DNA from: Streptomyces sp. TLI_105
Lineage (GTDB): Bacteria > Actinomycetota > Actinomycetes > Streptomycetales > Streptomycetaceae
Assembly: GCF_900105415.1 (NCBI RefSeq)
Contig: NZ_FNSM01000001.1
Coordinates: 4,368,501 to 4,432,500 of the forward strand
DNA: 64,000 bases
Direction: 5' to 3'
Shown: positions 6,857 through 22,476 of the stretch, in pieces
Layout of the letters: the number at the start of each line of letters is the position of its first letter
Numbering within the stretch: position 1 is the stretch's first letter
Translations under genes and position numbers: made by a program
The notes under the pieces: generated by a model
Databases searched by the model: none
What the model saw: the letters and a program-made list of their open reading frames with translations, nothing else
What the model was told of the DNA's origin: nothing

Positions 6857-7519
6857 TCAGGCGTCCGAGTGTCGTCCGAGGATCTCGCGGGCCCGCAGAC
6901 CGGCCTGGAAGCGGGACTGCGCGCCCAGCGAGGCCATGAGCGCGGCGACCCGTCGGCGGTAGGTTCGCAGGGACACTCCCAATCGGCGGGACGCGGCCTC
7001 GTCCGTATGACCGGCGGCCAGGGCCCGCAAGACGTCCCGCTCGGCGTCATCGAGACGGGGAAACGGCGTACGACGGTACGTGGCAAGGTCCGTCGAGGTC
7101 TCCCAGGCCGTCTCGAACAGGGCTCGCACCCCTGCCACCACGTCCGGTTCCTGGACGACGCTGTACACACGGGGTTCTCCTGCAGCGGACCGCGGTGCCG
7201 CCAGTACCGCGAGGCGCCGGTCGACGACGATCGCCTCGTGGGCCGGGGGTGCGGGTGAGATCCGGATCTCCGCGCCGGCCTCGCCAAGGCGCTTGAGCAG
7301 CTCCTGACCACTGGGGTCCCGGAAGACGCCGGGCCCGTACAACTTGCGCACCACGAGACCCGGCGAGAGCGTGCGAGGCGCGCGAGGGGCGGCAGCCGAC
7401 CACGTCTCGGGCTCCCCGGCGGTACAGAGGAACTCTTGCCGCACCCCCTCGAACAGGGCACCCGCACGCCGCGCCAGCTCGGCCTCGCCCCGCAGCGTCA
7501 CGATGCTTTTCTCCGTCAT
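6857..7519 (-). CDS. LuxR-type HTH transcriptional regulator
   Basis: The 220-residue protein has an N-terminal sensor-like region (about 1-140, with HEAIVVDRRLAVLAAP resembling the TrmB/phospholipase-D-like effector fold seen in this regulator class). A C-terminal LuxR-type helix-turn-helix follows (about 155-215: LDDAERDVLRALAAGHTDEA, then SRRLGVSLRTYRRRVAALM). There is no phosphoacceptor receiver domain. The start is ATG 7519. It is divergent from the aldo/keto reductase gene with only 57 bases between starts, so it most likely controls that gene. It lies inside the tRNA-flanked segment. Confidence 0.8.
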   Translation of the reverse strand: MTEKSIVTLRGEAELARRAGALFEGVRQEFLCTAGEPETWSAAAPRAPRTLSPGLVVRKLYGPGVFRDPSGQELLKRLGEAGAEIRISPAPPAHEAIVVDRRLAVLAAPRSAAGEPRVYSVVQEPDVVAGVRALFETAWETSTDLATYRRTPFPRLDDAERDVLRALAAGHTDEAASRRLGVSLRTYRRRVAALMASLGAQSRFQAGLRAREILGRHSDA

Positions 7520-20823: not shown

Positions 20824-21804
20824 TCAGTTGTCCCGTTCGAGGATGCCGGACTGGGCGATCAGATAGCCGAGCTGTGCGCGGCTGCCGCTGCCGAGGGCGG
20901 CGGCGAGCTTGGCGATGTGCGCCCGGCAGGTCCGCACGTTCATCCCGAGCCGGCGGGCGATGGCCTCGTCGACGTGCCCCTCGACGAGGAGCCGGGCGAT
21001 GGAGCGCTGGACGCCGCCGATGCCGTCGGTCTTGATGTCGTACGGGATCTCCTCCCGTATCGGCACCGCCAGCTGCCAGAACTGGTCGAAGACGCCGCCG
21101 AGGTAGGCGACCAGACCGGGGTGGCGCAGCTCCAGGGCGACCTGGCGGTCGCTGCGGGCCGGGATGAAGGCGACCTCGCGGTCGACGATGATCAGCCGGT
21201 CGATGATCTCTTCGAGGGTGCGGACCTGGACCTCGGGGCCGACGTGCTCCAGATAGGTCAGCGTGAGCTCGGTGTGGCGCGCGGTGTGCTGGTAGAGCGT
21301 GCGCATGCTGATGCCGCGTCCCAGGAGCGGGGAGACGCGGTCGAGGGCCTCGCTGAGGGCCTGGGCGGGCCGCCCGCCGCCCGGCTGGACGGTGAGGAGT
21401 TCCTGGCGGCAGTTGGCCACGACGCGGTCGAGGGTCGAGTTGATGCGGTCGATGCCCTCGAGGACGGTGATGGCGTGGGTGGTGGGGGAGTCGTGGGCGC
21501 TGATGGCCATGAACGGCTCGAAGGCGTCCGACAGGGCGACGGTGCGCCGCCGGCGGTCGAGTATCTCCCGTTCGATCGGCTGGAGCAGCTGGGCGAGCGC
21601 CGCGGAGGGGGGAACCGGACGCAGCCACTGCGCGTCGTCGGGGTCGGGGTGGAGCAGGGACAGGTCGAGGAGGCAGGGTGCCTCGACCGCCTCTGACCGG
21701 GGTATTCGCCCGGTGCGCAGAGCGGCCGCATACAGCTCGGAGCCCGCTTCGCACAGTTCGGCGTGCGAATGAGGGTGACCTGTTTCGTCCGCTTGTTTCC
21801 GCAT
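20824..21804 (-). CDS. LuxR-type regulator divergent from a DPGW-repeat peptide gene
   Basis: The 326-residue regulator has a long helical N-terminal sensor part (about 1-150), a middle TrmB/phospholipase-D-like segment (DRLIIVDREVAFIPARSDRQ, about 195-225) and a C-terminal LuxR-type helix-turn-helix (about 262-315: QRSIARLLVEGHVDEAIARR, then LGMNVRTCRAHIAKLAAALG). It has no receiver domain. The ATG at 21804 follows GGGGGT by six bases; 21828 is an in-frame alternative. It is divergent from the DPGW peptide gene with a 7-7-7 inverted repeat between them, so I infer it controls that gene and may respond to its product. The ligand is unknown. Confidence 0.8.
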   Translation of the reverse strand: MRKQADETGHPHSHAELCEAGSELYAAALRTGRIPRSEAVEAPCLLDLSLLHPDPDDAQWLRPVPPSAALAQLLQPIEREILDRRRRTVALSDAFEPFMAISAHDSPTTHAITVLEGIDRINSTLDRVVANCRQELLTVQPGGGRPAQALSEALDRVSPLLGRGISMRTLYQHTARHTELTLTYLEHVGPEVQVRTLEEIIDRLIIVDREVAFIPARSDRQVALELRHPGLVAYLGGVFDQFWQLAVPIREEIPYDIKTDGIGGVQRSIARLLVEGHVDEAIARRLGMNVRTCRAHIAKLAAALGSGSRAQLGYLIAQSGILERDN

Positions 21805-21869
21805 ATGTACACCCCCAGGCTCCTGCATCTCAGGAACATGATGCCTGGGTTTGGTGGTGCAGGCGCAGA

Positions 21870-21890
21870 GAGTAAGCCATCGTCTTACTC
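21870..21890. promoter_or_regulatory. inverted repeat in the LuxR/peptide divergent region (putative operator)
   Basis: GAGTAAG and CTTACTC form perfect seven-base arms separated by seven bases, in the 130-base region between the divergent starts 21804 and 21935. Size and place suit a dimeric HTH regulator. It is not the HAIR sequence. Confidence 0.55.
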
Positions 21891-21934
21891 GCGGGGGTTG
21901 GAAAAGAGACGTTGCCTTCAAGTGAGGTTGCTCG

Positions 21935-22150
21935 GTGATGATGAAGAAGCTCATACGCGCGGCGGCCGGACTCGCCTTCATCGCGGCCGCCACAGTGGGC
22001 GCGGGAGTGGCCCTTGACCCGGGCTGGCACTCGGAGCCGGCGCAGGTGCAGGCCGCTCAGCTCGACCCGGGCTGGCACCTCGCGGCCCCCACGCTCCTCG
22101 ATGACCCGGGCTGGAGCGTGGCCCCCGCGCAGGACCCCGGCTGGAACTAG
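21935..22150 (+). CDS. exported small peptide precursor with four DPGW motifs
   Basis: The 71-residue product starts MMMKKL (GTG 21935, ATG 21938 or ATG 21941; GAGG at about 21925). It has a signal peptide (MMMKKLIRAA, then a hydrophobic stretch to about residue 26, VGAGVA), followed by a 45-residue mature part with four DPGW motifs at residues 28, 44, 57 and 67. The spacing shortens regularly: 16, 13 and 10 residues. Two are DPGWH, then DPGWS and terminal DPGWN. There is no cysteine. I do not recognise a family. It is divergent from a LuxR-type regulator, and a Rieske-like gene follows nine bases later. It may be a precursor of repeated signalling or modified peptides. Confidence 0.75.
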   Translation: MMMKKLIRAAAGLAFIAAATVGAGVALDPGWHSEPAQVQAAQLDPGWHLAAPTLLDDPGWSVAPAQDPGWN

Positions 22151-22158
22151 TCGGGCAC

Positions 22159-22476
22159 ATGAATGTTCCCGATGACCCCAGGTTCCGCCGGGAGATGGCC
22201 TCGGCCTATCGCTCCGGCTGGCACTTCGTCGATCTCGCCACGGCAATCCCCCACCGTGGCGACTCGCTGAAGGTCACCCTCTTCGGAGAGCCGATCGTCG
22301 TCGCCCGCGAGCAGGACGAAGACGTCCGCGCGTACCGCTGTCTGCGCCGTCCCCGCGGCGCTCCGCAGCCCATCCGCTGTGCCATCCGGTACGGCATGAT
22401 CTTCGTCAACCTCGATCAGCGGGACCACCAGCTGATCGAAGCAGAGGCCATCACCGCCACCCCCCGCAGTGCCTGA
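22159..22476 (+). CDS. short Rieske-like protein lacking cluster ligands
   Basis: The 105-residue protein resembles the N-terminal Rieske domain of ring-hydroxylating oxygenases: SGWHFVDLATAIPHRGDSLK, VTLFGEPIVVARE and later YGMIFVNLD have the right order. The Cys-x-His and Cys-x2-His ligands are not present; where CPHRGAP is expected it has CLRRPRGAP, and the second pair is missing. It is therefore unlikely to hold a 2Fe-2S cluster. It starts nine bases after the DPGW peptide stop and is probably co-transcribed, suggesting a binding, maturation or immunity role for the peptide. The family assignment is by recollection of pattern. Confidence 0.65.
   Translation: MNVPDDPRFRREMASAYRSGWHFVDLATAIPHRGDSLKVTLFGEPIVVAREQDEDVRAYRCLRRPRGAPQPIRCAIRYGMIFVNLDQRDHQLIEAEAITATPRSA

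Follow-up and report, generated by a model that had tools for sequence, protein, structure and literature searches.

A small locus at positions 20824..22476 of a 64,000-nucleotide stretch of Streptomyces sp. TLI_105 (C1:4368501-4432500 of the 8.88 Mb genome; this whole stretch is referred to as the window) probably encodes a species-specific linear peptide signal together with its intracellular receptor. The locus comprises: (i) a regulator of 326 amino acids, R1, read from the ATG at 21804 (20824..21804, minus strand), with a winged-helix-like N-terminus, a long helix, a TrmB/PLD-like sensor domain and a C-terminal LuxR-type helix-turn-helix (HTH), (ii) a divergently oriented precursor of 71 amino acids (21935..22150, plus strand), classed as exported-type from its basic and hydrophobic N-terminus, and containing four copies of the word DPGW, and (iii) a Rieske-like protein of 105 amino acids (22159..22476, plus strand) devoid of the cluster ligands CxH and CxxH. 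One residue of the regulator changes along with the word, which differs from species to species; this suggests that bacteria use a language of peptide signals which has so far gone unrecognised.

Distribution of the locus

A preliminary description of the stretch had reported the precursor, a LuxR-type regulator reading away from it and a small Rieske-like gene nine bases downstream. All three stand: the precursor carries DPGW at residues 28, 44, 57 and 67, the genes of R1 and precursor are divergent, and the Rieske-like open reading frame (ORF) opens 8 bases past the precursor stop, i.e., with its start codon 9 bases on. The observation is confirmed and proved much larger than first reported, and the interpretation given with it is partly supported.

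Searching 150 genomes of the genus with R1 yielded a match at E 1e-20 or better in 144 of them, and an R1-type orthologue at E 1.3e-116 or better in 121 (counted by hand from the search table). From these 121 genomes 110 were examined; addition of loci from a scan of Actinomycetes and of 80 named loci (kept from 511; the locus of S. coelicolor is not among these 80) resulted in 217 loci. After removal of 14 loci as duplicate regulators, 203 distinct regulators were retained. R1, a divergent exported-type precursor and the Rieske-like protein form the layout of 217/217 R1 loci examined. Hence the precursor is found beside the regulator in many Streptomyces genomes, as the preliminary description had wished to see, and loss of the precursor with retention of the regulator, which it had named as speaking against its proposal, occurs at 0/217 loci.

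A conserved word in a variable precursor

The four DPGW words of the window (22016..22027, 22064..22075, 22103..22114 and 22133..22144, all plus strand) are spaced 16, 13 and 10 residues apart in a protein matching no Pfam or NCBIfam family above cut-off. A protein search retrieved 15 close relatives of the precursor, in each of which [DE]xxW occurs three or four times. Between species, the word takes 42 forms of [DEN]-x-x-W in 1-12 copies, e.g., DPGW, DPSW, EPSW, DSGW, DTGW, DIGW, DLVW, DSTW, DSSW, DTVW, DSKW, DTRW and NSSW; DPAW, DPTW, NSTW, NTSW and NSSW are the words of loci L107, L128 and L132-L134. Within a precursor, the word is uniform: all copies are identical in 146 of the 157 multi-copy precursors, as compared to a mean of 4.2 and a maximum of 11 in 1000 random draws. 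An overlapping protein set (the best 120 of 344 relatives) contains the word in 120/120 members and is homogeneous in 96 of 100 multi-copy members. The preliminary description envisaged release of several related peptides; since the repeats carry the same core word, the precursor would rather supply many copies of one core.

Between copies, the codons of the word differ by 704 synonymous vs 31 nonsynonymous changes (828 copy pairs), and the linker codons +2 to +4 after the Trp show the reverse (420 synonymous vs 1436 nonsynonymous). Recent DNA duplication as the cause of identical words is ruled out by the 704 synonymous differences, and, judged from these codon counts, the word is under purifying selection within the precursor.

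Recognition of the precursor was controlled with a detector for exported-type ORFs with [DEN]xxW upstream of the regulator. This detector responded at 203/203 true loci vs 21/203 opposite strands and 16/203 triplet shuffles, and at a distance of 1 kb in 4/147 stretches and 2/147 of their opposite strands. At least two identical words were present at 152/203 true loci vs 1/700 control stretches. Since control stretches fire at up to 21/203, a lone word may be a chance call in about one locus in ten. Precursors P0140, P0173, P0180, P0201 and P0203 are labelled "5'-nucleotidase" in UniRef, apparently a propagated misannotation.

Co-variation of the word with one residue of R1

The structure model of R1 consists of a winged helix, a long helix, a PLD-like domain and an HTH, with no membrane segment; both features of the TrmB family, i.e., a winged-helix part and a PLD-like effector domain, are thus predicted. 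The sensor domain (residues 109-250; 21055..21480, minus strand) is predicted from the model and from fold matches, the C-terminal LuxR-type HTH (residues 258-322; 20839..21033, minus strand) from a Pfam GerE match of 18 bits, under the cut-off of 23.5, and from fold matches within residues 254-326. Pfam matches of R1 up to E 1 included neither tetratricopeptide repeat (TPR) families nor an autoinducer-binding domain, the sensor part being PLD-like; where the VIA list lacks a fold family, this was not taken to mean that the fold is absent. The predicted TrmB/PLD-like sensor domain contradicts the earlier view of the regulator as receptor-less.

Residue 136 (codon 21397..21399, minus strand), which the model places in a strand of the PLD-like domain, is Leu in R1 of the window and co-varies with position 2 of the word (Pro in DPGW). 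Among the 203 distinct regulators, Ser at position 2 is accompanied by Met in 94/94, Thr by Val in 51/51 and Pro by Leu in 20/20 cases. Words with Ile at position 2 occur with Val (21) or Ile (2); for Leu words, residue 136 is Val in 8 cases, Ala in 2 and Ile in 1, and for Val words it is Val (4). Allowing Val, Ile or Ala for Ile, Leu and Val words, the rule is followed by 203/203 regulators, from which it was also derived. The words DTAW, DSVW and DSKW of loci L243, L268 and L239 each fit residue 136.

Shared ancestry was taken into account by means of 101 phylogenetically independent tip pairs, all of which were used in the permutation and second-tree tests. Where position 2 had changed (12 pairs), residue 136 had changed as well in 10, vs 1 of the 89 other pairs. 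In a family-wise permutation (stratified by distance, maximum over all 326 R1 columns, 5000 rounds), residue 136 scored 0 of 5000 and the runner-up column R209 0.333; residue 136 alone among the 326 columns passes this test for position 2. With a second tree, built without R1 residues 106-254, residue 136 changed in 15/17 vs 1/84 pairs (p 7e-15). A parsimony reconstruction counts 25 changes at position 2 and 20 at residue 136, with 16 of the former on a branch (of 404) that also carries one of the latter, and each of the 15 Ser-Thr switches is accompanied by a Met-Val switch. With respect to word position 3, Arg at residue 145 was found in 0/23 regulators with Lys or Arg in the word vs 122/180 others (ancestry uncorrected). 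From the pattern at position 2 we strongly infer that the word is recognised by the sensor domain of R1.

Neighbouring and distant regulators

R1 is usually located beside further regulators, R2 and R3 (80 named loci, L202-L281). Residue 136 of R3 is Val in 71/71 cases whatever the word and that of R2 is mixed in 81, and the rule fits R1 of 72/72 named loci kept as distinct. Since R2 and R3 do not track the word, the co-ordinated change is specific to R1 rather than to species or linkage. Upstream of R3 (78 loci), a loose filter yielded a peptide candidate at 22, none with a shared [DEN]xxW; those inspected resembled antisense ORFs.

Related regulators extend beyond Streptomyces. Matches at E 1e-25 were obtained in 76 of 393 Actinomycete genomes (13/124 genera), and a family scan of 150 genomes at E 1e-60 gave matches in 39 genomes (4/17 genera) with 40-50% identity outside the home genus. 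Out of 44 distant regulators (about 32-43% identity), 28 have a peptide within about 1.5 kb, 26 of them with [DEN]xxW; these peptides were picked out with three increasingly lax filters and by visual inspection, with no separate control for false positives. In the 24 pairs whose word has Ser or Thr as its second residue, Ser occurs with Met in 8/9 and Thr with Met in 0/15 cases (p 1.2e-5; p 2.8e-5 without two near-identical orthologues). The remaining four were left out of this comparison: L011 (DVIW, Val), L187 (DDDW, Leu), L181 (GFDW, Cys) and L177 (STIW, Val). Since seven of the 24 pairs (L009, L164, L168, L170, L173, L175, L196) were found once residue 136 was known, the test is not fully blind. 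The word of locus L197 is DSSW.

In one of the distant families (f22), the peptide is encoded 3' of the regulator in convergent orientation, and the word often lies at or just past an A-x-A site, suggesting an N-terminus that is defined, or almost defined, by signal peptidase. Some f22 precursors (L168, L171, L173) read DSSWGCGG followed by a further Cys, so that a ring could form. At L181 (3496-3795, with the regulator oriented to the minus strand), GFDWG is repeated three times in a precursor that adjoins a regulator with 33% identity, possibly representing another word type.

The home genome itself contains an own word at four of the five closest regulators, i.e., DPGW (R1), DTGW in three copies, DTSW and DVIW. 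One of these paralogous pairs, at about 4.520-4.523 Mb of C1 (L003, L008, L022), comprises a regulator 40% identical to R1 and a precursor in which DTGW occurs three times; an HMGL-like aldolase and a cupin come next. A distant relative of R1 is also encoded in the window itself at about 6896-7507 (minus strand; L016, about 30% identity, E 3.5e-13), and the filters showed no such peptide alongside.

Surroundings of the locus and the Rieske-like protein

The gene order in the window is presumably dnaK-grpE-dnaJ-hspR-R1-precursor-Rieske-like-PPOX-clpB, with the heat-shock genes named by recognition and PPOX from Pfam. Likewise, clpB and hspR flank the locus in L202, L203, L204 and L211. For S. 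parvulus together with two relatives (L211, L202, L203), the genes run clpB, Rieske-like gene, peptide, R1, R2, R3, hspR, with space for one further gene between R3 and hspR; two genes of the R2 type are present at locus L204. Among five named relatives in which the PPOX gene was looked for, four yielded none.

The divergent intergenic region contains an inverted repeat, TCCTG-N5-CAGGA (21821..21835), as a candidate operator. It is part of an intergenic block conserved over the aligned loci, in whose consensus these arms are set 6 bases apart. A sigma-70 promoter scan found none.

The Rieske-like protein is present at 217/217 loci, with Cys 61 and 74 conserved in about 99% and CxH or CxxH in 0/217, ruling out a functional Rieske cluster. 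Its tentative assignment is based on weak matches to Pfam Rieske (17.2 bits, below cut-off) and NCBIfam GbcA (28.1 bits against a cut-off of 670 set for the whole enzyme), and on a low-confidence structure model (mean pLDDT 67.7) whose Foldseek list is headed by Rieske proteins at E 0.5 and worse. In 27 of the 29 genomes without R1 the gene is absent at E 1e-6; of the other two, genome G061 retains the peptide along with a shortened R1, and the second gives a weak match (39% identity). The locus of G061 (L284) encodes a peptide with two DTGW words next to the Rieske-like gene, and the R1 match covers residues 10-168 only, representing a natural truncation. Around the 44 distant regulators, no relative of the Rieske-like protein was detected at E 0.05, and it is therefore not part of the core pair. 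Accordingly, its inclusion in the cassette by the preliminary description is valid for the Streptomyces locus, where it is constant, and does not extend to the distant regulators. As the usual cluster cannot be held, a structural or delivery role beside the peptide may be guessed.

Possible link to physiology

In S. coelicolor, clpB is SCO3661 and hspR is SCO3668. SCO3665 and SCO3666 are referred to as LuxR-family in PMC3282765, and SCO3664 is listed in PMC6585502 as a "regulator" with insertion mutants among those producing >50-fold more actinorhodin. Gene counting between clpB and hspR fits SCO3664, which is thus probably R1 of S. coelicolor.

Proposed mechanism and alternatives

The layout had been proposed earlier to be that of a peptide-signalling system, and this view gains from the presence of the pair at every R1 locus examined, the purifying selection apparent on the word and the co-varying regulator residue. 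In the preferred reading of a linear peptide signal with an intracellular receptor, the precursor would be exported via the Sec route, as its N-terminus suggests, and cut around the repeats to yield several copies of a short peptide with the core D-P-G-W ([DEN]-x-x-W in general). The peptide would re-enter the cytoplasm, probably by an oligopeptide permease, given the R1 model without membrane segment, and the word would be recognised by the TrmB/PLD-like sensor domain. As the co-variation strongly suggests, its position 2 would be read at or near residue 136; its position 3 may be read around residues 143-153. Binding would then alter the action of the LuxR-type HTH on its promoters, among them probably the divergent promoter region that both genes share and that holds the inverted repeat, and differing words would keep the signal private to kin of each species.

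Several results weigh against this reading. Between hspR and clpB in the window, neither a processing protease nor an importer was recognised. The residues following the Trp vary between precursors and thus give no indication of the mature ends, and 46/203 precursors have a single word, which means that multiplicity is not essential. No such peptide was detected near 16/44 distant regulators, and among those with a peptide, Thr words occur with Val (7), Leu (6, all of family f22), Ala (1) or Ile (1) and one Ser word with Ala, so that the code drifts. The tracking of word position 3 is only suggestive: in the family-wise permutation the best columns were A153 (0.023) and R145 (0.117), and with the second tree the list was led by E152 and included columns outside the sensor domain such as E323, so that distance may still be a confounding factor. 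The inverted repeat pattern has no genome-wide enrichment (12+15 matches vs 20+31 for the backward pattern), and hence no regulon is predicted. Furthermore, SCO3664 is presumed to be R1 from gene order only.

The same data were considered under four other explanations. GC-rich DNA yields long chance ORFs, and the 71-amino-acid protein has no family above cut-off, so that the precursor might not be real or its repeats might be a compositional accident. This possibility is negligible and was rejected in view of the controls (203/203 loci vs 21/203 or fewer) and the 704 synonymous vs 31 nonsynonymous changes. The agreement of residue 136 and word could also reflect co-inheritance or co-transfer without contact, as the genes are adjacent and show joint gain and loss, with the Rieske-like gene missing from the above 27/29 genomes. 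However, R2 and R3 are equally linked and do not track the word, residue 136 is singled out from the 326 columns by the family-wise test, and the independent pairs, the tree free of the sensor domain and the distant regulators agree; based on R2/R3, the permutation and the second tree, linkage as the sole cause was rejected as very improbable. Only slightly less improbable is a secreted effector, an antimicrobial or the start of a modified peptide, with R1 sensing its own product for feedback. The exported-type, repeated and variable precursor, the cysteine-bearing forms in distant relatives (L168, L171, L173) and a nearby F420-type PPOX gene and the Rieske-like protein as possible modifying partners would be in line with it. 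On the other hand, the genes inspected between hspR and clpB, where no dedicated search was made, include no recognised enzyme for peptide modification, no immunity protein and no dedicated exporter, the PPOX gene was not found in most of the relatives checked (see above), and conservation is concentrated in a four-residue core matching a regulator residue.

The most serious alternative, in our view unlikely as well, assumes that the unexported precursor is an intracellular ligand, by which R1 gauges secretion capacity or protein stress instead of cell density. The location between hspR and clpB is in favour of it, and the recognition data fit it as well; a private stress sensor would, however, leave the 42 words across species unexplained, and the paralogous pairs of the home genome are located elsewhere on the chromosome. 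A linear peptide signal with an intracellular receptor thus remains the preferred explanation. With somewhat less assurance, we lean towards the wider view of a so far undescribed peptide language common to Streptomyces and other Actinomycetes, in which hypervariable [DEN]-x-x-W words, mostly present in several copies, are set free from exported precursors and read by TrmB/LuxR-type receptors according to the residue-136 rule (Met-Ser, Val-Thr, Leu-Pro), and in which the words of species and of home paralogues (DPGW, DTGW, DTSW, DVIW) would represent private channels controlling antibiotic production and development.

If true, the presence in most Streptomyces of a linear peptide signal specific to each species would offer a new handle on the timing of antibiotic chemistry, because the words are readable from the genome and can be ordered as synthetic peptides. 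With the residue-136 rule, the ligand could be predicted for a regulator that is otherwise an orphan, and the recurrent Ser-Thr with Met-Val switches provide many natural experiments on the joint change of signal and receptor.

Comparison with known systems

Most known quorum sensing by gene-encoded peptides is from Bacillota. Actinobacterial signals are described in PMC10075063 as typically enzyme-made small molecules and in PMC4748050 as generally cyclic or modified peptides and gamma-butyrolactones. A description of the present pair or its words was not found among the matches listed in the open-access literature, mostly judged from title and beginning of the abstract, with subscription journals mostly outside; PMC12112392 is the single Streptomyces paper therein to contain the string "DPGW", as far as the open-access text extends. 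The locus compares with established systems as follows.

Archaeal TrmB and TrmBL2 share with R1 a winged-helix part and, behind it, a PLD-like effector domain. According to a PDB title, TrmB carries a domain that binds sugar, whereas R1 has an added LuxR-type HTH and a peptide as co-varying partner. To our knowledge, a TrmB/LuxR-type receptor class has not been described for peptides. The C-terminal LuxR-type HTH is in turn shared with LuxR solos, reported in PMC9659744 to be frequent in Gram-positive bacteria, and with the LuxR receptors for acyl-homoserine lactones. R1 differs from both in that no autoinducer-binding domain was matched and a gene-encoded peptide lies alongside.

Among diffusible signals of Streptomyces, gamma-butyrolactones acting via ArpA-type receptors control secondary metabolism and development. 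They are small molecules with a TetR-type receptor, in contrast to a gene-encoded peptide with a TrmB/LuxR-type receptor. The BldK-dependent extracellular signal of S. coelicolor, given as a peptide of 655 Da in PMC9640686, is an oligopeptide imported by a permease and presumed to govern development, which makes this a plausible import route also for the peptide proposed here. A link to the 655 Da signal is not claimed, and hand-worked masses of short DTIW-type peptides do not give 655. One exported precursor with several copies of the pheromone is a feature of yeast alpha-factor; the multi-copy design is alike, but the proteins are unrelated and the yeast receptor is at the cell surface.

The closest parallel is RRNPP signalling (Rap/Phr, PlcR/PapR, PrgX, Rgg/SHP), for which matched variation of peptide and receptor is known, ComX being another variable pheromone. 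As defined in PMC10075063, these systems consist of a small exported propeptide adjoining a cytoplasmic receptor-regulator of 250-500 amino acids, with a short linear peptide as signal. An adjacent gene for a small propeptide and a one-protein receptor-regulator are likewise encoded at 217/217 of the present loci, with export judged from the N-terminus only. RRNPP receptors are TPR proteins of Bacillota, whereas R1 is a TrmB/PLD-like protein with LuxR-type HTH from Actinomycetota in which no TPR was matched, and membership in RRNPP was rejected for this reason. By analogy, the R1 locus would work like RRNPP peptide signalling, with a different class of receptor.

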